Assembly: GCF_900497595.1 (NCBI RefSeq)
Contig: NZ_UFQO01000003.1
Coordinates: forward strand, 125,532 to 189,531
DNA from: Treponema pectinovorum
Lineage (GTDB): Bacteria; Spirochaetota; Spirochaetia; Treponematales; Treponemataceae
Length of the DNA stretch: 64,000 bases
Reading direction: 5' to 3'
Within the stretch, counting starts at the first letter, position 1. Each line of letters starts with the position of its first letter. Below, one piece after another: positions 6,668 through 63,903 of the stretch. Both the position numbers and the translations under genes were made by a program. The notes under the pieces are model-generated. The model saw only the letters and a program-made list of their open reading frames with translations. It had not been told where the DNA came from and did no database searches.

Positions 6668-9600
6668 ATGTTTTTGCTTAATAAGCTTGATATATTTTCT
6701 GTTTTTTCTTTGATTTTTGTTCCGTCGCGGATTAAAAGAGCTTTTTTGTTGGGAGTTTTTGCTCTTTTTTCTTGTGGTTTTGTTTTTTCTACTAATTTCA
6801 CTTGGACTGGTGGCGGAAGTCCTCTCCAATGGAATGACCCTGTCAATTGGTCTCCTGATGCTCCAGACGTTGACGGCTATCCAAACGATTCTAGCGATAA
6901 TGTAATCATAAATAATGCTACAGTTAGTGTTTCTGGTGATGTTGTATGTGGAGCAATAAACATTACAGGCTCGTCTTCGCTTACTATAAGTGGAAAATTG
7001 ACGAATACTGGTGCAATATCTTCTAGCGGGAATATAAGTCTTGGCTCTTATGAAGGACACGGTGCGAGCATCGATTGTGCTGGCAGCTTTACTGCTACAA
7101 GTGGGGCAACTTTTAGGGGGCATGTAAGGCCGTCGTCTATTAGTATTGGGGGGGACGTAATTTTTGGTTCTGATGTTACTGATGTTACCACGGCAGGTAA
7201 TCAAAGTTACGGCGGAGTTGTGAAGTTAAATAACAATTTTAATTTCGAATCTGCATCGGGAACTGTAACTTTTAACTCTAATGTGCAATCTTTGAATGCA
7301 AATTTAAAGGCTTTATCTATAACTGGAAACGCAGTTTTTGTTTCTGCGATAGGTTTAGGAACTTCACTCTCCTCTGTTTCTGTTAGCGGAACGACTTCTG
7401 TTGGTGGAAATATTACGACCAGCGGAAGTCAAACTTACGGAAGCGACGTTACGCTTACTTCTAGCAGTACTTTGTTTACAGGAAGCTCTGTTACTTTTAG
7501 TGCAAAAGTTGATGGTTCAAGTTCTCTTTCTGTAGCAGGTGATGCGGTTTTTGGAGGAGCGGTTGGCTCTGTAACTGCACTTTCTTCAGTTTCTGTTAGC
7601 GGAACGACTTCTGTTGGTGGAGATGTTACGACCAGCGGAAATCAAACATATAGCGGAAATTTGACTTTAACTGCCGATTCTGTTTTTAGTTCTTCGGGTG
7701 CAATTGCTTTTGGAACTTCATCTGCAAACACTGTAACTACATCGTCCCACACTTTGACGGCAAACTCTGGAACTTCAAATTCTGTAACCTTTAATTCAAG
7801 CCTTTCTAACGCAAAGATTAAATTGGTTTCATCTACCATTTTTAAAACCGATAATGATTTTTCTTCTTTTGAAGCGGATTCTTCTGTAAACTCTTCTGCG
7901 TGCACCGTTACCTTTGAAGACAATTCAACTCAAAATTTTACAAATTTTTCTTGCAACGGAACAAGCGGTAAGGAAATCACTCTAACTTCTGCTTCTCAAA
8001 GTTCTTCTTCGCCGTGGAAGGCTGTTTTTTCGACCAAGCCGACAAGTTCATCGTTTGCTTATACGCTGGCTGGATATTGTAATTCCGTAACCGCTTCAAA
8101 TGTTGCAAATGAACTGGATTTAATTCCTTCAACTGCAACTGTAAAAGATTTAAATATGAGTTCGCCAGCAACTATGACGACAAAATACTGGTTCACTCAA
8201 GAATTTGTTTGGAACGGAACGACGGACAGTTCTTGGACAACGGCTTCAAACTGGCAATATTCGGACGGAACAACTGCGCTTACATATCCAGATGACACAA
8301 AAGGAACAAGCAAAATAACGATTGCAGATTCTGCCCTCAATGCTTTGGTTTTAACTTCTGCAGTGTACATAAATAAAATTTCTGTCGGAACTTCATCATC
8401 TGCTTCGTGCAAAGTGGAACTTTCAAATTTTGCACTGAATACTTCTTATCGCTCTGGCTCTAATTACGGCCTTACAAATTTTGGAACAATCGTGTTTTCT
8501 GGAAGTGGGCGCTTTTACTATAAGGCGACATCGTCTTCTTCTGCTGTTTTGATAATGGATAATGCCAGAGGAACTGTTGAATATAACGGTGCAAGTGGAA
8601 ACATTACAGATATTTATAATGGCTCAAATTCTACGAACGATTACTACAAACTTCTTATAAAAAGTGGAACTTGGACTATCCAAAACTCCCATTCTTCAAA
8701 CGAAAATAACATCAAAGCGGCTTCAAGTTTTACTGTAAATTCTGGAGCAACTTTGGTTTTGGAAGATACGGCGGTTGTAAATAGTGCTCTCGTGAACAGG
8801 GGAATTTTGCAAGTGGACAGCGGCACGGCTGGAATCTGGGAAAACTTTACAAATGCGTCTGGGGCAACTGTTCAAAACGATGGCAATTTGCTTTTTACTA
8901 AAGAATGCCAGAGTGTAAGTGATGGGGGAAGTTGGACATTTGGTTCTAGCGGTAAGGTTTCTTTTGCTGCAACAAACTCTGATATAAGTTTTACAGAAAC
9001 CGCGACTGCAAATTCTTCAAATTCGTTTAAATTTGATACTTCATCATTTAATTCAAATTCGCTAAGCATAAGCGGAGTTTCAAATTCTGCACTTTTAAAA
9101 ATCGCTTCTTATACTGGTGGCGGAAGCGGAACTATAAACTTTAGCAATACTAATTTTTTGCAGACTGCACCTGTTTTTTTCAGCGGAACTGTTACTCTAA
9201 GCGATGTGGTAAAACTTGCAGGAACTTTGAGAGTTGGTTCTGGGCAGACGACTTTGGCTGGAACGGTAGATGCAAACGCTGTCGATATAGCAAATTCTGC
9301 AAAATTGATTGGCGGTGCAAACAAGATTTTTACAGTTAAAAGCTCTTGGACAAATGCAAACTCTTCTGGCGGATTTGTGGCAAATACGAGCGAAGTTATT
9401 TTTGAACTTTCCGCAGATTCTTCTTTAAGCTTAACTGGAACAGAGATTTTTTATAAACTTGCGATAAAAAATCATAAATTAACGGCGACAAATGCTGTTT
9501 CTGTAGGGCAAAGCCTTTCTATAACGGATTCTGCCAGTTTTAGCGGAACGAGCCTCGTAACAAGTGCAGGTGCGACGGCAAATTTTAATGCTCTAAATAG

Positions 9601-12600
9601 CGATAGTGCTCCTATTGTCCGCACTAGTGGAAATCAAACTTATGGAGGAGCATTAACTCTTGGTGTTAATTGTTTTTTGCAAGGAGCAACAGTGATCTTT
9701 GCCGGTGCTGTTGAAGGAACTTACAATTTAAAGGTGAGCGGGAACGCAAATTTTAATTCCACTGTTGGCTCGAGTTTCGCCTTAAAAGATGTTTGGGTAA
9801 CGGGCAATGCAGAGTTTGGCGGTGTAGTAAAATCGCAAAGCGTCGACGTTTCTGGAACAACAAAGATAAAAACAGCAAGTATAACTACGACAGGAGTTAT
9901 ATCTTCTTCGTTAACAGGAGAAAGCCAGCGATACGCCGGCGATGTAACGCTTGGAGCAAATGCAGTTTTAACCGCACCCGCTACAAAATCGATTGGCTTT
10001 GGGGCAGGAATAACAGACGGTGCAAACTCTTATGCGATGAGTATTGCTGGTGCAGACGTTGCAGTTGCAGGTGCGATAAATATAGATGGCTCGTTTACGG
10101 CTGGTGCAAATGCGAGTGTTGCAGGTGCAGTAAATTGTGCAGTCGTTTCTGTAACTGGCAATGCGGTTTTTGGTTCTGATGTAACTTCTTCTGCAAGCAT
10201 AACGATTGGCGGAACAACTTCTGCTGGCGGAAATATCACAAGCAACACAGCGCAAATCTATACTACTCTTGTAACGATTGGCACTTCTGGCGTTGAATTT
10301 AAGTCAACTGCGGGGGATATAAACTTTGGAACGAGTGCAATCAATTCAAATTTAATTACAGGAAATTCTGGCTATGGATTTACTGTAAACACAACAGGTT
10401 CTCATGTTACAAATTTTTATGGAGTAATCGCAAATAATCCAGAACTTACGATAAAAGGTAATGCGAATATATATCAGGCAAATTCCTTTACAAGTTTAAT
10501 AGCACAATCGCAGGCTGGAAAAACTTTAACTTTTGGTTCTGGGAAAAAACAGACTATTACTTCAAAAATCTTTCTTTCTGGAACGCAGGATTCTAAATTA
10601 AATTTAACTTCAACTGGGCAATGGGAACTTTTCCTAAATCCTAATACGATTGCAGAATCAACTTCATCTTACGGAATTGAATATGTTGATATAAAAAATT
10701 GCAAAAACATTACAAAAAACGGCTCTGCTGACTATTATCTTACAGCTTTAAAAAGCAGCGACAGCGGAAATAACATTTATTGGAATTTTCCAGGGATGGA
10801 ATATGTTTGGAGCGGTGGCACAAGCGATTGGTTTACTGCTGGCAACTGGGTTCAAAATTCTGTTCCTGGACGTGGCTCAACTGTAAAGATTCCAGCGGTA
10901 GCTTCTCCGAGTGTTTATCCTTTGCTCACTGCCGATATAGATATTTCTTATCCGTCGTATTCAAATCTCGATTCTGACACCCCTGGAACTATAACTGTAG
11001 AAGAATCTGCGGAAATTGATTTTGCGACTTTCGATGTAACGGCTGGAGAATTTACAAACAACGGTTTAGTAAAACTCAACGGAAAATCAATTTCTGTTCC
11101 TCAAACGATTTTGGCGACAATGGCGAACGGCTCCTCTTCGACAGTAGAGTACGGCGGTACAGATTTAACCGATTTTGTTTGGGATGGAAGTTCAGAGGCA
11201 GGATTTCAATATCAAAACCTGCGCATAAAAGGAAGTGCAGTCGTAAGTTCAATAATAGAAGTTTCTGGCACAACTTTAATAAATACGAGTGGCGATGTTT
11301 CGCTTTCTGGAGCAAATATTTTTACAGGCGATGTCTCTGTTAGCTCAACTGGCGATGTTCAGTTAAATGCTTCCAGTGAATTTTCTTTATCCGCAGGAGC
11401 AACATGCAAAAATCTTAATATCGTAAGTCCTGTCGTATTAAAAGGCGCTGTAACGAGCGTTGCAACTCAAATTTATGGTTCAACAGTAAAGATAGATGGG
11501 AATTTGACAGGAACGGTGCTCACATTCAAAGGCGACTTAGATGTAAGGAATGCAGTCAGTTTTGATGCAAGTTCAAAGATAGAATTTTCTAAAGCGGCAG
11601 CACAAAATGTAAGCGGAACTATGGCAGTAAAATTTGATTGCCCGACCGTAAGTTTTACCAGCGATTTGACGATTGCAAATCCAATAAATTTTGAACAGAG
11701 CACAGGCTTTGCTGGCGGAACCAAAAAAATTACTTTTAATCAGAAAGTCAATTCTTTGGGTAGCGCAAACGATGTAAGCTTTACCTGTGGAAATGCAATT
11801 TTTAATTCGAGCATAGGCGAAACCCTTGCGTTAAAAGTGCTTTCTATAAACGGCAATGCAGAATTTAGCGGTGCGGTAAAGGCAGAAAGCGTCGACGTTT
11901 CTGAAACAACAAAGATAAAAACAGCAGGCATAACAACGACAGGGGTAATCGCTTCTTCGTTAACAGGAGAAAGCCAGCGATATGCAGGCGATGTAACGCT
12001 TGGAGCAAATGCAGTTTTAACCGCGCCTAGCACAAAGTTAATTCGCTTTGCAGCAGGTTTAACCGATGGTGCGGACTCTTATTCTGTGAGCACAGTTGGT
12101 GCAGACGTTGCAGTTGCGGGGCAAGTAAGCATTGGAGGCTCATTTACGGCTGGAGCAAATGCGAGAGTTACAGGCTCTGTAACTTGTGCAGCGCTTTCTG
12201 TAACGAGCAATGCGGTTTTTGCTTCTGATGTAACTTCTTCTGCAAGCATAACGGTTGGCGGAACAACAAAATTTTCTTCATCAACAGAGCAAAATGTAAG
12301 TTCAACTTTGGGTCAAACCTATACTGGCGATGTTGAAATTTCTTCTGGTGTAAAATTTAAAGCAAGAGGAGATTTTTCAATCGATTCTGTAATAGGACCA
12401 GGTTCTTTTGATGCAAAAGTTTATGACGGAAAATCCTTTACAGCGTCTGGAACATTGGGAAGAACAACTGCTTTATCTTCTATAGATATAACCGCTGGCA
12501 AATTGCAGTTAAACGGTTTTAATTCCAATGGAACTGCCGATTTTAAAGCATTGCCTTCAACTGCTGGCGTATTTGGAAGTGGCACAACAGCAAACACAAT

Positions 12601-15600
12601 AACGATGATTTCTGGCGATTATGTTTCTAGTGGAGCACAAAATTTTAACGCTGTTGGTGGAGTTAGAGTTTTAAACGCTGCACCACTCGTATGGAACGCA
12701 AATGCAAATTCAATCACGCTTTTGAATTCTCCGCTTTTTGTTGATTCCTCTTCTACTCTGGCTCTTCTTTCTTCGATTTCCGCTCACAATATTTATTTTT
12801 ATTCTGGAAATATTTCTTGTTCATCATCTATAACTTCGGTTCAAGATTTTGCAATTTGGGGTAGTGCTTCTTCTTATGACGATCCTCGTTTTGCTGGCAC
12901 AGATACTCGCTTTGCTTACTACGGTTACGATTCTTTGATATACAAAGCGTCTTCAACTTTTGGAACAAGCCTTTCATTTTTGGGCGCGACTTTAACTATT
13001 GGAAAGAACTTTTATCTAAACGGTGCAAATCTTTCTGGAGCAACGATTTCGATTCAAGATAATTCACAATCGAATCCGGTTTTTAATGCAACCTCTTCTG
13101 TTACAGAAAAACAATGGGGGATTCCTTATGCGGTGGCGTTTAATTCAACTTTGAATAATTTGAGTGTTACAGGTGGCTGGCTTTGTGCTGGTGCTGTCGA
13201 TAGCGAAACTCACGGACAAACGCAGGGCAACACTTTAGCGGGAACAAATGCAAATGTTCAAGGCAGTGTTCCTCGTATTAAAAATGCGTATTCGGTTTAT
13301 GACGATGTGGTTTTTGTTGAATTTGATATGCCTTTGGAAAATTCAAACGGAGAAATTGCAACTAACATCGGCTTAACTTCTTCATCAACTTCGGCCGCAT
13401 CTGGAGGGATATTTTATTCAAATGGAACAAAAAAAATCCTCTCTGTTTATACAGATGCTGACTGCACCACGCCTTTAACAAATGACGCAGGCGATGTGAG
13501 TTCTTTTTATATACGCGCTGAAGAAACTTGGAACACAGACGCAACAGGCACGGCTTCGTATAATGCACTTTCGACGAATTCGCTTGACTCAACCGACCGC
13601 TCTGGAACTCATAAAAATCTTACGACAGACCTTTCTATTTTGGAAGGAATGTTTACCGCTGCAAACGGACACACCATGAGCAGAAATTACGGCGCAGGAT
13701 TGGAAAATTCTTCTGTCCCTCTTTCATTCAATAAAGTTGAAGACAGGGCAAGTCCTGTTTTAATTGCAGTTTATACAGGTCAGGAAAAACACAGCGTTTA
13801 CGATTCTATCATTGGTGCAACCAGCCAAAACGAATACGATTCTCATAATTTTATTGAATTCAAATATTCAGAAGCGGTGAACATTGGAAATCTCGCCTTT
13901 AATGCTGGCGATTTGAATGCAAGGGCAACAGTTTCTTTTGCAAACTCTTTAGAACACGGCGCTCACATTACAGGAAGTGGAACAACTGCGAACGGAAATG
14001 GTCTTACTGTGGAAGGATTTGCTCATCTTGCGTCTGGCAAATTGATTTGTGCTTCTAAAAATTCAAGCGATTCTCCGCATGCACTTTACAGAAAATTCAG
14101 CACAACTTCATCTGGCAGTCCAGCTGCACAGACCCACAGATTACGTTTAAGCGTTGCAGGATACGTAGACGGAACAGTAACTCACAATTCAAACTTATAC
14201 AGAAATTGGGTTGGCTATATAGATTCGGCACAAACTCCAAGCGGTGCAGTAACAAGAATCTCAAATTCATTTATAACGGATATAGCAAAAGACAAAGATG
14301 GAAACAATATTTTTACAGCCTTAGACAGCGTAGGAACTGAAAATCATCCTCTGGGCGACATTGTAGTGAATTCTACAACTCAGGAACTGTATGGACTTTG
14401 GGATGTTCTTCCGCCAGTGATTGCTCCGTTCATCACTTCTGGCGAAAACTGGACTTCCTGGGCAGCAGGTTCGCATTCAAGTTCTTACGAGATAATCGGT
14501 GCCTCTACAGGCTCTTATATCGAGTCGATAGAAGTTCATCTTTTTGATAACAATAAAAATCAAAATTCTTCTTTGGGAGTTGACTATTGGTGGAAGTCCA
14601 AAAAAGGCTGGATGGAAAACATAAAAACGCTTCCAGATACTTTTGGAGGGGCAAGACCATTTGTAACTTCGACTGTTACTTCTCAAAGCCAAACCTCAGG
14701 TGGAATAAGGCGCTCATCTCTTGCAGGCGAAAATTCTTCGTTTAGTTATATTGTCGGTTCTAATTCCGAAAAATCGGCAGGGTCTGCGGAAATAGGGCAG
14801 GTTGTGCGCAGTTCGCTTTTCCGCTCTTCTACAGATAACGCTACAGCAAGCGACGGCCTGTATTTAAGCATTCCTGTAAACGACAGTGACACTTATCTCC
14901 CTATTAGAAGTGCTTTTAATTTTTATTACGAACCAGCAAATAGTTTTATCACGGATTTAGCAGGAAACCGCCTTGCTTCTTCATATAGCCAGAAAACTTC
15001 GTTCGCTTCTGTAGATTTAACTGCGCCTTCTTATGTTATGAGCCTTGCTCCAATAGGAAACAACAAGGTTTATGTTATATTCACAAAAAAGCTCGCATAT
15101 ACGGATCCAAACGGTGACTCTTATGCATTTGGCGATTTGGATTCCACTCAACTTTCTGATGCTCTGAATGAAATTAAAGACAGTTTTAGAATCTGCCAAA
15201 AACAGACAAATACACCATATTCTGGAATATCAATCGCTTCAGTTGAATACGTATCTTCGTCCGACGAATACACCGCATTCCTGTTCAATTTAGTGGGAAA
15301 AATAACGCTCGACAATATAAAAAATCTTTGGATTAGAAATATCGGGCACGGTACAGATACAGTTGGCGATATAGTTACAGGAGACCCGATAAGCGACACA
15401 AAGATACACGACTTTATAGGAAATTATCTTACAAAAAATAAGGCACATGCAATTTCGGACTTTGCGATAAACGCAGTGGATGTCTTGTATGCTCATGCTT
15501 TACCTAAAGATAATGACGACTGGGACGAACAAGGCATATACGGAAACGATTTTGAATCTAAAGCAGAAAATTACGCTGTTCACGATTTTTCAGAAACGCA

Positions 15601-16423
15601 AGGAAATTACGGCAAACTTGTAAGAGGACGCGACATCGTATTTAGAACAAGAATAATTGCTGGGCTCGATGCAAATGACGATTATATTCTTTCGACGGAC
15701 ACTTTTAAACTTTTGGCTACAAAAAAGACAAATCTTACTTCTTTTATGATAAGCGATAAATTAAACCGACTTACAGGATCTTCTTGGAGGCTTTGGCTTC
15801 CAGAAAAGATGAGCGCACTTGCGACTTCAGAAGTTTCAACTAGTTTGCTCGAAACGCTCACTCCTGACACTTCAAATCCTCCAGCTATACCGCTCTATGA
15901 TTACAAATTTGCATCAACAACTTTTGACCCTGGCGATGAAATTCAATTTTTGTTCGAGGTGCAAGGCGTAACAATAGATCACGATGCAGATTTTGACCCA
16001 AGTTTTTTTGTTCCTTCAAGTCCAACCGCAGAAATTCCGCTCTATGCGCTTTGGATGCCAGAAAACAAAATAAATTCCAAAGGTTTTCCTTTTGTTGACC
16101 TTTGGTCATTCGGAATAAAAGATGTGAGTTTACAAAGGGGTGGCGTTTCAATTTTGAACAATGTCATAAATGTAAATGTCCGCGAAAAAACCGTAATTCA
16201 AGTTGACCAAGCAAGAGACGGCATCCTGAATGTCTTTGTCATGACGCTCGACGGCAACATCGTAAAAAGGCTTTCGCACGGAACAAAATCTCAAGGCACG
16301 CATTTTTTCCACTGGGACGGAACGAACAATGCAGGCAATCCTGTTGCGCGTGGGCTTTATTTTGTGCGAGTTACCGGCCCTGAAATCGACGAAACACGAA
16401 AAGTTTTGTGTGTAAAAGAATGA
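6668..16423 (+). CDS. Giant exported repeat protein (beta-helix-type adhesin) with FlgD-Ig-like tail
   Basis: A 3,251-residue protein. Residues 1-43 form an export signal with an unusually long N-region and a hydrophobic core at 26-35. LFSC at 33-36 could be a lipobox; cleavage after FVFS at 41 is the alternative. Three copies of a W-x-G ... NW ... P module begin near residues 44, 511 and 1378. Between them are many rungs rich in Ser, Thr, Gly and Asn, of the type SGTTSVGGN and NQTYGG-V-L, typical of beta-helical surface proteins. The section from about 2200 to 3160 is not repetitive and has more charged and aromatic residues. Residues about 3176-3251 are a FlgD-Ig-like domain (HFFHWDGTNNAG, GLYFVRVTG) ending in RKVLCVKE. 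No beta-barrel translocator is seen. The likely role is adhesion or surface structure; that is inference. TAGGAG lies 12 bases upstream of the ATG. Confidence 0.85.
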   Translation: MFLLNKLDIFSVFSLIFVPSRIKRAFLLGVFALFSCGFVFSTNFTWTGGGSPLQWNDPVNWSPDAPDVDGYPNDSSDNVIINNATVSVSGDVVCGAINITGSSSLTISGKLTNTGAISSSGNISLGSYEGHGASIDCAGSFTATSGATFRGHVRPSSISIGGDVIFGSDVTDVTTAGNQSYGGVVKLNNNFNFESASGTVTFNSNVQSLNANLKALSITGNAVFVSAIGLGTSLSSVSVSGTTSVGGNITTSGSQTYGSDVTLTSSSTLFTGSSVTFSAKVDGSSSLSVAGDAVFGGAVGSVTALSSVSVSGTTSVGGDVTTSGNQTYSGNLTLTADSVFSSSGAIAFGTSSANTVTTSSHTLTANSGTSNSVTFNSSLSNAKIKLVSSTIFKTDNDFSSFEADSSVNSSACTVTFEDNSTQNFTNFSCNGTSGKEITLTSASQSSSSPWKAVFSTKPTSSSFAYTLAGYCNSVTASNVANELDLIPSTATVKDLNMSSPATMTTKYWFTQEFVWNGTTDSSWTTASNWQYSDGTTALTYPDDTKGTSKITIADSALNALVLTSAVYINKISVGTSSSASCKVELSNFALNTSYRSGSNYGLTNFGTIVFSGSGRFYYKATSSSSAVLIMDNARGTVEYNGASGNITDIYNGSNSTNDYYKLLIKSGTWTIQNSHSSNENNIKAASSFTVNSGATLVLEDTAVVNSALVNRGILQVDSGTAGIWENFTNASGATVQNDGNLLFTKECQSVSDGGSWTFGSSGKVSFAATNSDISFTETATANSSNSFKFDTSSFNSNSLSISGVSNSALLKIASYTGGGSGTINFSNTNFLQTAPVFFSGTVTLSDVVKLAGTLRVGSGQTTLAGTVDANAVDIANSAKLIGGANKIFTVKSSWTNANSSGGFVANTSEVIFELSADSSLSLTGTEIFYKLAIKNHKLTATNAVSVGQSLSITDSASFSGTSLVTSAGATANFNALNSDSAPIVRTSGNQTYGGALTLGVNCFLQGATVIFAGAVEGTYNLKVSGNANFNSTVGSSFALKDVWVTGNAEFGGVVKSQSVDVSGTTKIKTASITTTGVISSSLTGESQRYAGDVTLGANAVLTAPATKSIGFGAGITDGANSYAMSIAGADVAVAGAINIDGSFTAGANASVAGAVNCAVVSVTGNAVFGSDVTSSASITIGGTTSAGGNITSNTAQIYTTLVTIGTSGVEFKSTAGDINFGTSAINSNLITGNSGYGFTVNTTGSHVTNFYGVIANNPELTIKGNANIYQANSFTSLIAQSQAGKTLTFGSGKKQTITSKIFLSGTQDSKLNLTSTGQWELFLNPNTIAESTSSYGIEYVDIKNCKNITKNGSADYYLTALKSSDSGNNIYWNFPGMEYVWSGGTSDWFTAGNWVQNSVPGRGSTVKIPAVASPSVYPLLTADIDISYPSYSNLDSDTPGTITVEESAEIDFATFDVTAGEFTNNGLVKLNGKSISVPQTILATMANGSSSTVEYGGTDLTDFVWDGSSEAGFQYQNLRIKGSAVVSSIIEVSGTTLINTSGDVSLSGANIFTGDVSVSSTGDVQLNASSEFSLSAGATCKNLNIVSPVVLKGAVTSVATQIYGSTVKIDGNLTGTVLTFKGDLDVRNAVSFDASSKIEFSKAAAQNVSGTMAVKFDCPTVSFTSDLTIANPINFEQSTGFAGGTKKITFNQKVNSLGSANDVSFTCGNAIFNSSIGETLALKVLSINGNAEFSGAVKAESVDVSETTKIKTAGITTTGVIASSLTGESQRYAGDVTLGANAVLTAPSTKLIRFAAGLTDGADSYSVSTVGADVAVAGQVSIGGSFTAGANARVTGSVTCAALSVTSNAVFASDVTSSASITVGGTTKFSSSTEQNVSSTLGQTYTGDVEISSGVKFKARGDFSIDSVIGPGSFDAKVYDGKSFTASGTLGRTTALSSIDITAGKLQLNGFNSNGTADFKALPSTAGVFGSGTTANTITMISGDYVSSGAQNFNAVGGVRVLNAAPLVWNANANSITLLNSPLFVDSSSTLALLSSISAHNIYFYSGNISCSSSITSVQDFAIWGSASSYDDPRFAGTDTRFAYYGYDSLIYKASSTFGTSLSFLGATLTIGKNFYLNGANLSGATISIQDNSQSNPVFNATSSVTEKQWGIPYAVAFNSTLNNLSVTGGWLCAGAVDSETHGQTQGNTLAGTNANVQGSVPRIKNAYSVYDDVVFVEFDMPLENSNGEIATNIGLTSSSTSAASGGIFYSNGTKKILSVYTDADCTTPLTNDAGDVSSFYIRAEETWNTDATGTASYNALSTNSLDSTDRSGTHKNLTTDLSILEGMFTAANGHTMSRNYGAGLENSSVPLSFNKVEDRASPVLIAVYTGQEKHSVYDSIIGATSQNEYDSHNFIEFKYSEAVNIGNLAFNAGDLNARATVSFANSLEHGAHITGSGTTANGNGLTVEGFAHLASGKLICASKNSSDSPHALYRKFSTTSSGSPAAQTHRLRLSVAGYVDGTVTHNSNLYRNWVGYIDSAQTPSGAVTRISNSFITDIAKDKDGNNIFTALDSVGTENHPLGDIVVNSTTQELYGLWDVLPPVIAPFITSGENWTSWAAGSHSSSYEIIGASTGSYIESIEVHLFDNNKNQNSSLGVDYWWKSKKGWMENIKTLPDTFGGARPFVTSTVTSQSQTSGGIRRSSLAGENSSFSYIVGSNSEKSAGSAEIGQVVRSSLFRSSTDNATASDGLYLSIPVNDSDTYLPIRSAFNFYYEPANSFITDLAGNRLASSYSQKTSFASVDLTAPSYVMSLAPIGNNKVYVIFTKKLAYTDPNGDSYAFGDLDSTQLSDALNEIKDSFRICQKQTNTPYSGISIASVEYVSSSDEYTAFLFNLVGKITLDNIKNLWIRNIGHGTDTVGDIVTGDPISDTKIHDFIGNYLTKNKAHAISDFAINAVDVLYAHALPKDNDDWDEQGIYGNDFESKAENYAVHDFSETQGNYGKLVRGRDIVFRTRIIAGLDANDDYILSTDTFKLLATKKTNLTSFMISDKLNRLTGSSWRLWLPEKMSALATSEVSTSLLETLTPDTSNPPAIPLYDYKFASTTFDPGDEIQFLFEVQGVTIDHDADFDPSFFVPSSPTAEIPLYALWMPENKINSKGFPFVDLWSFGIKDVSLQRGGVSILNNVINVNVREKTVIQVDQARDGILNVFVMTLDGNIVKRLSHGTKSQGTHFFHWDGTNNAGNPVARGLYFVRVTGPEIDETRKVLCVKE
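9801..10217 (+). repeat. Long internal repeat of the giant gene, unit 1
   Basis: This stretch matches 11851-12267 at a constant 2,050-base offset, with substitutions but no indels. It encodes about 139 residues including TGESQRYAGDVTLGANAVL, which is identical in the second unit. It is much longer than the short rungs elsewhere in the protein, so it points to a more recent segmental duplication inside the gene. Confidence 0.85.
11851..12267 (+). repeat. Long internal repeat of the giant gene, unit 2
   Basis: Second copy of the 417-bp unit at 9801-10217. Substitutions are scattered, many at synonymous positions, and the reading frame is kept throughout. Confidence 0.85.
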
Positions 16424-32171: not shown

Positions 32172-32228
32172 CGCACTCCATTTTTGCATAAAAAAGAGGA
32201 GCACAATGCTACACTGGGCCAGCTGTGC

Positions 32229-32280
32229 GTGGTTCCGCTTACGCTTCATTGCCGGCAAAGCCGCCAACGCTTCGCGCCAC
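32229..32280. repeat. GTTCCGC palindromic repeat
   Basis: Begins GTGGTTCCGC and ends GCGCCAC, with CATTGCCGGCAAAGCCGCC between. It is a member of the dispersed family and part of the 2.4-kb duplicated block; its counterpart is at 61477. Confidence 0.7.
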
Positions 32281-32408
32281 TTCCATCTGGGCTAGGTTTT
32301 GTCGTTTACAAGGCATTTTCTCTTCTCGCCTTTTATCTTTAAAAAAACTATGTCAAATGATAAGTTTTATTATCAATCATCGATTTTATTTCTTCTTTAA
32401 CATCCTGC

Positions 32409-32467: not shown

Positions 32468-34612
32468 CTATTCCACTTTGAACTTTGCAACTTCTGCTGC
32501 AAGGGTCGAAATACTTGTCTTGTTCTTTAAGCTTATCTGGTTTACTTCCAGTATCGCCTTGCTTATCTGCACCGTTCCAGAAGAAATCTCTTCTATGCAG
32601 TCTGCAACTGTCCTCGTAAGCGCATCAAGCCTGTGCATCTCTACTGCAATCTCTTTGCCTCCAGAAAGCATCTCTTCAGAACCATTCCTTACTTCCGTAC
32701 TTATTCCTCCAATAGCCTTTATCTCAGAGAACAAATTTTTGCTCGACTCAACCTGTCTTACCAAAACTGCATTCAGCTCTTCTTCTTTTTCCTTTGCTTC
32801 ATCTACAAACTGTGAAACCTTATCAAAAGAAGTCTTTATGTTCTCGCTCGCTACAGAAATTTCATCGATTATCTTTAATGTTTCATTTATTACATCTGTA
32901 ATCTGCTTTCCCTGAACAGAACTCTCTTCCGAAAGTTTCCTGATTTCCCCTGCAACAACTGCAAAGCCTTTTCCAGATTCTCCAGCGTGTGCCGCTTCTA
33001 TCGCAGCATTCATCGCAAGCAAGTTTGTCTGACTTGCTATATTTTGAATCACCTTTGCAGCTTCTATAAGAGAACTTGATTTTTCTGCAATCTTAGAAAC
33101 TATTCCGCTAGCAGTAATCGCTCCTTCTTTTCCGCTTACAGTTGCCTGATGAATCGTATCCATGAGCGTTCGCGTTTCGGCAAATATTTCCTTTGTAGAA
33201 TCTACCTCTTTGTACATTTCAGAAACTGCAACTGCAGAAGATTCTATGCTTTCCGTCTGGATTTTTATCCTATCGTTTAGGCTGTTTATCGTGTGGATTA
33301 TTTCTTCCATCGTAGAAGTTGTTTCTGTTACGCTTGCCGACTGGTCAATCGCCTGTTTTTTTATGTCTTCTATGTTTGAGCTTATTTGGTTTATAGAAGA
33401 GGCTGTTTCTGCCATGTTGGAAGCAAGGTCTTGTCCAACCTGATTCATTTCGCCAGTTTGGAACGAAATAGTTTTTAGTGCCATAGCGATTTTAGAAATC
33501 GTTTCGTTAAAATATTTAGAAAGCAGGAAAAACTCATCGTTACCTTTTAGGCTGAGCCGACCGGTATAGTCAGCATTTGTGGAAACCTGCTGCAAAACTC
33601 CAATCAATTTTTTTACTGGAGAAGTTAAGCGAACTGCAAACACAAAAGCTACAACCAAGAATATCGCAAGCAAAACCAGTCCGATTATCGTTATAGAACG
33701 CAAGAACTTATAATAATCTTCGTAAACTTCGCTTCGTTCAAAGAGGGCAATCAATTTCCAGCCTGTTTGCTGTATCGTATAAACTTGTGCAAACCATTTT
33801 TGCTTTTCAATGCTTATAACTTTAAAGCCAGAATCGATTTTTGCAAGTTCAACAAAATCAGCAATCCCAACTTCGTTCATCTTTTTAAAGATGAAATTTT
33901 CGTTTGTAGGATCTGCAAGAATTGTTCCATCACCTTGAATGAGCATTAAATGACCAGTGCGTCCAACTCTAAATTTGGAGATAATGTCTGTAAGTCTTTT
34001 TAGAGAAATGTCTATACTCACAACTCCTATTGGTTTATTTTGATAGGAATTTACGGTTTTTGCGATGCCAATTACGGTTCCTCCAATGGCAGAACTAAAA
34101 GCGTCGAGCATAATGTCTTTTCCAGCATTTTTGAATGCTTTTTCATACCAGCCCCTTCGTCTAGGATCAAAACCAGCAGGCAGTTCACCGTCAAAGTTTG
34201 TTGTAAAGTCGCCTTGTGTAGTTCCCATGTAAACTTCTACATAATCTGGAAACGAAGCTGTAACTCCTTTAAAAAGATTTCTGAGCCTTATTTCTTGTTG
34301 AGTTTTTAGCGTGCTTGAAACTTTTGTTTTTTGAGTTGTGTTTATATATGAATTTAAATTTCCGTATGCTTCTTTGCAATATTCGTGTTCAGAAAGCATG
34401 TTCAATACATTTGAAGCAGTATCAAAAAATAGTTCAATATTTCTATCGAACAATTTCATATCCCGCAAACTTGATTCTCTAAAATTATTTACATTTGCTT
34501 TTTTTGTTTGATATCCAATAATAAAAGATACCAAATTCACCAAAGTAAAGATTATGACTGTAAATATGATAAGAAGTTTTTTTCTTAATGAAAATATTTT
34601 TTCTTTTTTCAT
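32468..34612 (-). CDS. Methyl-accepting chemotaxis protein, copy 1
   Basis: Transmembrane chemoreceptor of 714 residues that passes ligand signals to CheA/CheW at the cell pole. Order of parts: membrane helix at about 12-34, a periplasmic dCache sensor to about 305, membrane helix at about 308-330, HAMP, then a long methylation/signalling coiled coil. The signalling tip is [24 protein letters not shown] (in part), typical of the family. In the sensor, [12 protein letters not shown] marks the membrane-distal ligand pocket. AAGG lies nine bases before the ATG. Its paralogue at 61717-63903 is nearly identical except for residues about 152-199. The ligand is unknown; dCache pockets often bind amino acids or small organic acids. 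Confidence 0.95.
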
Positions 34613-61407: not shown

Positions 61408-61476
61408 AAATATCCGTTTTTGCTGCCATTTTTGCATAAAAAAGAGGAGCACAATGCTACACTGGGCCAGCTGTGC

Positions 61477-61528
61477 GTGGTTCCGCTTACGCTGCATTGT
61501 CGGCAAAGCCGCCAACGCTTCGCGCCAC
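61477..61528. repeat. GTTCCGC palindromic repeat
   Basis: Begins GTGGTTCCGC and ends GCGCCAC. It differs from the copy at 32229-32280 at only two or three positions and lies within the duplicated block. Confidence 0.7.
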
Positions 61529-61655
61529 TTCCATCTGGGCTAGGTTTTGTCGTTTACAAGGCATTTTCTCTTCTCGCCTTTTATCTTAAAAAAACTATGT
61601 CAAATGTTAAGTTTTATTATCAATCATCGATTTTATTTCTTCTTTAACATCCTGT

Positions 61656-61716: not shown

Positions 61717-63903
61717 CTATTCCACTTTGAACTTTGCAACTTCTGCTGCAAGGGTCGAAATACTTGTCTTGTTCTTTAAGCTTATCTGGTTTACTTCCAG
61801 TATCGCCTTGCTTATCTGCACCGTTCCAGACGAAATCTCTTCTATGCAGTCTGCAACTGTCCTCGTAAGCGCATCAAGCCTGTGCATCTCCACTGCAATC
61901 TCTTTGCCTCCAGAAAGCATCTCTTCAGAACCATTCCTTACTTCCGTACTTATGCCTCCAATAGCCTTTATCTCAGAGAATAGATTTTTGCTCGACTCAA
62001 CTTGCCTTACCAAAACTGCATTAAGTTCTTCTTCTTTTTCCTTTGCCTCATCTACAAACTGTGAAACCTTATCAAAAGAAGTCTTTATGTTCTCGCTTGC
62101 TACAGAAATTTCATCGATTATCTTTAATGTTTCGTTTATTACGTCTGTAATCTGCTTTCCCTGAACAGAACTTTCTTCCGAAAGTTTCCTGATTTCCCCT
62201 GCAACAACAGCAAAGCCTTTTCCAGATTCCCCAGCGTGTGCCGCTTCTATCGCAGCATTCATCGCAAGCAAGTTTGTCTGACTTGCTATATTTTGAATCA
62301 CCTTTGCAGCTTCTATAAGAGAACTTGATTTTTCTGCAATCTTAGAAACTATTCCGCTAGCAGTAATCGCTCCTTCTTTTCCGCTTACGGTTGCCTGATG
62401 AATCGTATCCATGAGCGTTCGCGTTTCTGCGAATATTTCCTTTGTAGAATCTACCTCTTTGTACATTTCAGAAACTGCAACTGCAGAAGATTCTATGCTT
62501 TCCGTCTGGATTTTTATCCTGTCGTTTAGGCTGTTTATCGTGTGGATTATTTCTTCCATCGTAGAAGTTGTTTCTGTTACGCTCGCCGACTGGTCAATCG
62601 CCTGTTTTTTTATGTCTTCTATGTTTGAGCTTATTTGGTTTATAGAAGAGGCTGTTTCTGCCATGTTGGAAGCGAGGTCTTGTCCAACCTGATTCATTTC
62701 GCCAGTTTGGAACGAAATTGTTTTTAATGCCATAGCGATTTTAGAAATCGTTTCGTTAAAATATTTAGAAAGCAAGAAAAACTCGTCGTTGCCTTTTAGG
62801 CTGAGCCGACCGGTATAATCAGCATTTGTCGAAACCTGCTGCAAAACTCCAATCAATTTTTTTACTGGAGAAGTTAAGCGAACGGCAAACACAAAAGCCA
62901 CAACCAGGAATATCGCAAGCAAGACCAGTCCGATTATCATTATAGAACGCAAGAACTTGTAATAATCTTCGTAAACTTCGCTTCGTTCAAAGAGAGCAAT
63001 CAATTTCCAGCCCATTTGCTGTATCGTATAAACTTGCGCAAACCATTTTTGCTTTTCAATGCTTATAACTTTAAAGCCAGAATCGATTTTCGCAAGTTCA
63101 ACAAAATCCGCAATCCCAACTTCGTTCATCTTCTTAAAGATGAAATTTTCGTTTGTAGGATCTGCAAGAATTGTTCCATCGCTTTGAATGAGCATTAAAT
63201 GACCAGTGCGTCCAACTCTAAATTTGGAGATAATGTCTGTAAGTCTTTTTAGAGAAATGTCTATGCTTATGTTTCCAATATATTTCCCTTGTGGCGAAAC
63301 TACATTTCTCGAAAGCGCAATCGTATTTTCTCCAACAGTAGAAAGGTAAGCATTTGTCATAATTTCCTTTCCTCTGTTGTTATTTGCCATTATGTACCAA
63401 TCTCTTTTTCTAGGATCAAAACCAGCAGGCAGTTCACCGTCAAAGTTTGTTGTAAAGTCGCCTTGTGTAGTTCCCATGTAAACTTCTACATAATCTGGAA
63501 ACGAAGCTGTAACTTCTTTAAAAAGATTTCTGAGCCTTATTTCTTGTTGAGTTTTTAGCGTGCTTGAAACTTTTGTTTTTTGAGTTGTGTTTATATATGA
63601 ATTTAAATTTCCGTATGCTTCTTTGCAATATTCGTGTTCAGAAAGCATGTTCAATACATTTGAAGCAGTATCAAAAAATAGTTCAATATTTCTATCGAAC
63701 AATTTCATATCCCGCAAACTTGATTCTCTAAAATTATTTACATTTGCTTTTTTTGTTTGATATCCAATAATAAAAGATACCAAATTCACCAAACTAAAGA
63801 TTATGACTGTAAATATGATTAGAAGTTTTTTTCTTAACGAAAAAATTTTCTCTTTTTTTGCTTTAAGTTTTTTTTCATTGGGGAGACTTTTGATACCTTT
63901 CAT
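61717..63903 (-). CDS. Methyl-accepting chemotaxis protein, copy 2
   Basis: Transmembrane chemoreceptor of 728 residues with the same layout as the copy at 32468-34612: membrane helix, periplasmic dCache sensor, second helix, HAMP, methylation and signalling coiled coil. From its second half to the C-terminus the protein is identical or nearly so to copy 1. The difference is concentrated between FDPRKR and [12 protein letters not shown], where this copy has [15 protein letters not shown] and its own following sequence. Its N-terminus carries about 14 extra residues ([15 protein letters not shown]). AGGAG eight bases before the ATG at 63903 fixes the start; the frame is open to 63921. Confidence 0.95.

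Follow-up and report, generated by a model that had tools for sequence, protein, structure and literature searches.

Two chemoreceptor genes, A and B, lie 29 kb apart in the 64,000-nucleotide stretch of Treponema pectinovorum DNA that we analyzed (hereafter, the window). They are nearly identical except for one short block of the sensor. How did the two genes come to share almost everything but this block? The source genome (2.22 Mb, 10 contigs, 98.9% complete) contains 14 MCP genes, and its receptors were collected by search. The DNA of A and B was 94.8% identical over 2442 aligned bases. The homology extended past the stop codon into non-coding DNA, with its 3' limit at about 32178 in A and 61426 in B. 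Pfam search gave 103 bits for the MCP signalling domain (PF00015) in both proteins, above the cut-off, and 76 bits (A) and 74 bits (B) for dCache_1 (PF02743) against a cut-off of 45; the HAMP score was slightly below its cut-off. Hydropathy peaks at about residues 6–36 and 300–337 indicated two transmembrane segments in A. The PF00015 match and the two transmembrane segments identified A and B as predicted methyl-accepting chemotaxis proteins, and their sensors were assigned to dCache_1 from the PF02743 score and the double-Cache fold of their structure models. Translation of B may start at ATG 63903 or TTG 63921. The features are listed in Table 1.

Table 1. Chemoreceptors A and B, their zones of differing divergence and an adjacent repeat (window coordinates)
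Feature	Position	Strand	Description and basis
Chemoreceptor A	32468..34612	-	714 aa; TM1, dCache_1 sensor, TM2, HAMP-like region, MCP signalling domain; ORF and Pfam
Chemoreceptor B	61717..63903	-	728 aa from ATG 63903; ORF and same Pfam domains as A
Divergent pocket block of A	34016..34159	-	Residues 152-199; 66/144 differences to B
Divergent pocket block of B	63265..63408	-	Base-by-base comparison, likelihood scan; no second DNA copy in genome
5' homogenised tract of A (B 63409-63793)	34160..34544	-	N-terminal sensor helix to DPR motif; 1/385 differences, pS 0
3' homogenised tract of A (B 63184-63264)	33935..34015	-	Starts at SIDISLKRL motif; 0/81 differences
Rest of A	32468..33934	-	Proximal Cache module, TM2, HAMP-like region, signalling domain; 3.0% different from B
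Copy of ~100-base dispersed repeat at 3' end of A/B homology	32191..32310	.	Self-search

A and B were compared base by base. The first and last differences of the block were at 34159 and 34016 in A, equivalent to 63408 and 63265 in B. Between them, 66 of 144 bases differed without any gap, and 20 of 48 residues were identical; in the last codon of the block, the difference was silent only. The boundaries, equal length and abrupt ends that the first-pass annotation had given for the block were exact to the base. In a likelihood scan, the best single segment was again 34159–34016, with an LR of 118; the highest value from 30 shuffles was 9.2. The annotation had also described the remainder as near-identical, downstream non-coding DNA included. 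This was correct, except that the flanks were not uniform. The 466 bases adjoining the block contained a single difference, far fewer than the 3% beyond (Fisher p = 1.2e-4; binomial p = 1e-5). In the gene-start zone (34609–34545 in A coordinates), 5 of 65 bases differed. From 33934 to the stop at 32468, 44 of 1467 bases (3.0%) differed, affecting 38 codons silently and changing three residues.

Silent sites were then considered separately. The block had a pS of 0.76 and a dN of 0.52, whereas pS was 0 in the adjoining zones; in the 3' part, pS was 0.126 and pN was 0.003. Among codons for unchanged residues, 7 of 20 inside the block had silent differences, compared with none of 155 in the adjoining zones (p = 9e-8). 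Synonymous divergence thus did not rise smoothly but stepped from 0 to saturation at both edges. If one copy had simply mutated fast under selection after a duplication, silent changes would not be confined to the block. The step at both edges points to recombination rather than point mutation under selection, as first proposed for this locus, and we conclude from these comparisons that the history of the block differs from that of its surroundings.

The position of the block in the sensor was analyzed by alignment to PctA. Residues 152–199 of A fell within the dCache_1 sensor. R153, W155, Y156 and D201 of A corresponded to R126, W128, Y129 and D173 of PctA, whose roles in the amino-acid motif are known (PMC10104139), and the same residues were present in B. 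The block contains three of these motif positions (R126, W128 and Y129 of PctA) and ends two residues before D201. The position of PctA Y144 is occupied by F172 in A and by Tyr in B, a match that is approximate owing to a one-residue indel. AlphaFold models of the A and B sensors had pLDDT values of 92.3 and 92.7, respectively. The best structure match of both models was PscC (6mni, TM 0.88–0.90), followed by complexes of PctA, PctB, CtaA and Mlp24 with amino acids. In the models, the block formed the helix after DPRxR, the ensuing loops, a complete strand and a large part of the strand after it. The alignment to PctA and PscC and the two confident models supported the earlier placement of the block in the membrane-distal ligand pocket, most of which it would encode. 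The dCache_1AA amino-acid sensor motif was kept in A and B, for which amino-acid-type ligands are predicted. The block difference likely affects the side-chain preference for such a ligand.

To put A and B in context, 104 receptors from nine genomes were surveyed for mosaics: the window's own genome (G000) and eight others that were searched and from which some of the receptor loci (L numbers) were taken, so that coverage was partial and was best for G018 and G042. Several within-genome pairs had signalling parts 89–98% identical and distal pockets only about 50% identical in DNA. Cross-species sets showed the opposite: in L201/L133, L202/L209/L007 and L140/L004, the distal pockets were 76–91% identical and the signalling parts 68–76% (DNA). 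Silent sites agreed with this. For the closest within-genome pairs, signalling pS was 0.07–0.12 and pocket pS 0.70–0.93, whereas for the matched cross-species pairs, signalling pS was 0.73–0.82 and pocket pS 0.33–0.69. One receptor of G012, L132, was a mosaic of three parts, which met near residue 215 and near residues 295–300. Its proximal Cache module was shared with L140 and L201, its TM2–HAMP stretch was almost exactly that of L202, and its distal pocket was its own. A tandem receptor pair at L224 (G016:C1:102915-108858) is a further candidate mosaic, as its DNA identity was 93% in the signalling parts and about 57% in the pockets.

Trees of the two parts conflicted for related receptors of G000, G012 and G046. 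In the distal tree, receptors joined by pocket across species, and grouping by genome was rejected (AU p = 5e-8 for G012; for the G046 pair, 1e-35). In the signalling tree, the arrangement was largely by genome, and pocket grouping was rejected (AU p = 5e-85 and 3e-29). Two receptors of the window's own genome, L004 and L007, belonged to the cross-species pocket groups. These results showed concerted evolution of receptor bodies in the relatives, with the pockets left out, and supported the earlier suggestion that gene conversion keeps the rest of such receptors uniform. In G012 and G046, the breaks coincided with borders between modules and with neither edge of the A/B block, and the narrow block was found in only one pair of the source genome. 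The process in G012 and G046 would be the same as in A/B, and the tract is different; A/B looks like the narrowest case of body homogenisation with the pockets spared. Another receptor of the source genome, L003 (G000:C3:302886-304985), matched L125 of G012 along its length with 87% DNA identity, a likeness that may reflect transfer or strong conservation. Unlike L003/L125, A and B had no relative above about 40% protein identity in G012.

Taken together, these data are probably best explained by old pocket lineages carried on paralogous receptor bodies that were homogenised by gene conversion. A and B would be paralogous dCache_1 receptors of the amino-acid type that exchange DNA by homologous recombination, and the two 144-base blocks would be old, mutually diverged versions of the membrane-distal pocket. 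The DNA around the blocks would have been made identical recently, and the homogenisation further 3' would be somewhat older. We infer that gene conversion was the molecular step and that selection acted for two pockets. Conversions spreading over the flanks could survive, and those erasing the pocket would be selected against or would stop where the mismatched block hinders strand exchange. Most likely, the cell thereby keeps two pocket specificities on one common receptor body. A and B would be expected to signal alike via identical signalling domains and to differ in ligand.

A second order of events also fits A/B. A recent duplication or a homogenisation of the whole gene may have made the two copies alike, after which a foreign pocket block was imported from another strain or species. 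The near absence of differences to either side of the block, compared with 3% further 3', could then represent one homogenised tract in which the block was replaced later. The B block was also somewhat nearer to receptors of related genera than the A block was (up to 51–52% versus 34–47%). No donor was found in the window's own genome, in 200 genomes of the genus or in 394 genomes sampled across the order. In the own genome, searches with block DNA and with the whole gene returned no further copy of either block, and the next best match of the B block was A, with 67% over the 201-base query. The best other blocks were about 43–53% identical over the 61-residue query in the genus and about 52% for B in the order, and a scan of GTDB 220 contigs with the B pocket region gave no confirmed relative. 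The GC and GC3 of both blocks were not clearly different from those of the gene, giving no sign of foreign origin. If the flanks of a donor were diverged, recombination at the edges would have little identity to use. The donor would thus need to be an A- or B-like gene already, and the question would only be shifted to a different strain. In our judgement, import is rather unlikely, second to the order in which old blocks had their flanks overwritten. The latter is favored because the relatives show it and because a diverged donor, unless already A/B-like, would match poorly at the edges of so short a tract. Of the block swap originally suggested, the recombinant mosaic has stood; the swapping in of a block has not found a donor, and old blocks with overwritten flanks fit equally well or better.

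The age of the blocks was approached through their divergence. The A and B blocks were 40% identical, about as distant from each other as A was from receptors of other species. In these searches, neither block had an ortholog with more than about 50% identity, and block age is judged from divergence. Three block trees placed the A and B blocks apart. AU tests did not reject uniting them (p = 0.37, 0.31 and 0.36), and the two blocks might be each other's nearest relatives. When the neighborhoods of A and B were compared with G046, G020 and G076, neighbors were not shared, and no ancestral locus was named.

We also weighed a recent duplication after which positive selection drove rapid point mutation in the pocket. 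Duplication with accelerated evolution of the sensory domain is the standing explanation for PctA-type sensors (PMC6974571). Of the two-part refuting condition in the first-pass annotation, the first part held, in that no other close block was found here. For A/B, the saturated silent sites of the block next to unchanged neighboring ones rule out recent point mutation, and both edges are abrupt. In addition, a fast-evolving pocket did not agree with the homologues. On average, conservation was higher in the block than in the flanks; in pairs with flanks 25–85% identical, block identity was 3 to 12 points higher. A/B was the sole extreme outlier among the surveyed homologues, with 99% identity in the flanks and 40% in the block. 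It would also require mutation to be limited to exactly 144 bases, and we regard this explanation as very improbable. An assembly or sequencing artefact, such as a chimeric repeat collapse, is conceivable because the assembly is in 10 contigs and the two genes are nearly identical repeats at a distance of 29 kb. It is just as hard to credit, as the copies differ throughout the 3' part and in the flanking DNA, and both blocks are in frame, equal in length, consistent with the family pattern and complete in all motif residues.

Programmed variation is the least credible explanation, even though tprK of treponemes undergoes conversion from donor sites within the genome (PMC6197692). The differences between the A and B blocks involve all bases and silent positions. 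Its three candidate forms were each examined. A diversity-generating retroelement was rejected on finding no RVT_1 reverse-transcriptase match in the genome (10 contigs, 98.9% complete), tprK-like silent cassettes on finding no further full or partial block copy in the genome, and an invertible or shufflon switch on finding no repeats framing the block edges.

Several known systems resemble A/B in part. In Campylobacter jejuni, the dCache_1 paralogues Tlp2/Tlp3/Tlp4 and Tlp11/CcrG have divergent sensors on signalling domains that are the same or almost the same, and a domain swap has been proposed for CcrG (PMC9769880, PMC5080441). There, the whole sensor differs (about 30% identical), whereas in A/B all but 48 residues are near-identical, and silent sites were examined. 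PctA/PctB/PctC of Pseudomonas aeruginosa are amino-acid dCache paralogues with a near-intact signalling domain (PMC6974571), and as in A/B, the binding motif is kept and the surrounding positions vary by paralogue. They have been explained by duplication and accelerated sensor evolution, with recombination unmentioned (PMC6974571), whereas the silent-site step of A/B argues for recombination. In Treponema pallidum, mcp2-1 (TP0488) has recombinant tracts lying partly in the Cache domain, one of at least 505 bp (PMC3447947, PMC5354452). These are allelic exchanges between subspecies at about 20–30 variable sites, unlike the paralogues A and B with their saturated pocket block. tprK, tprC and tprD of T. 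pallidum are mosaics from intragenomic conversion among paralogues (PMC6197692), as proposed for A/B, but they encode Tpr proteins and have genomic donor sites; no donor cassettes were found for A/B. As far as the literature was searched, with partial coverage, what is new is that the unit is smaller than a domain, that silent sites provide evidence and that pocket and signalling trees are opposed.

New ligands of receptor paralogues are usually explained by duplication and rapid sensor mutation. A/B and the relatives offer a testable alternative, in which specificity is a module that can be exchanged or protected. A wider reading, which we put forward tentatively and hold to be somewhat doubtful, is that the ligand pocket, down to the segment of about 48 residues between the motif arginine and aspartate, is a free unit of recombination in this spirochaete family. 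Long-lived pocket lineages would then sit on genome-specific, continually homogenised bodies, and a large part of what looks like accelerated evolution of the sensors in chemoreceptor paralogues would be homogenisation of everything else. A and B are also a natural experiment, as they differ in essence only in the pocket, and are suited to finding residues for ligand choice.

The surroundings of the two genes were searched for repeats and other elements. B was flanked on both sides by a repeat of about 100 bases, at 61439–61558 and in a copy just upstream, past the window end; these copies may have helped to move the B gene. About 30 copies of this dispersed repeat were found in the genome, one of them at L062 4018-4117. 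A search for an RNA element near gene A gave no Rfam match. Elsewhere in the window, an exact 136-base direct repeat occurred at 1–136 and 2186–2321, enclosing genes that read, from their translations, as LysR-type regulator-like and aldo/keto reductase-like. A repetitive ORF of 3251 residues (6668–16423) contained internal DNA repeats (9799–10218 and 11849–12267) that were 85% identical, and it probably encodes a large surface or secreted protein. At L244 (1501–2820), a ComEC-like ORF of 439 residues was found (PF03772, 148 bits), and a role in DNA uptake is conceivable from this match.
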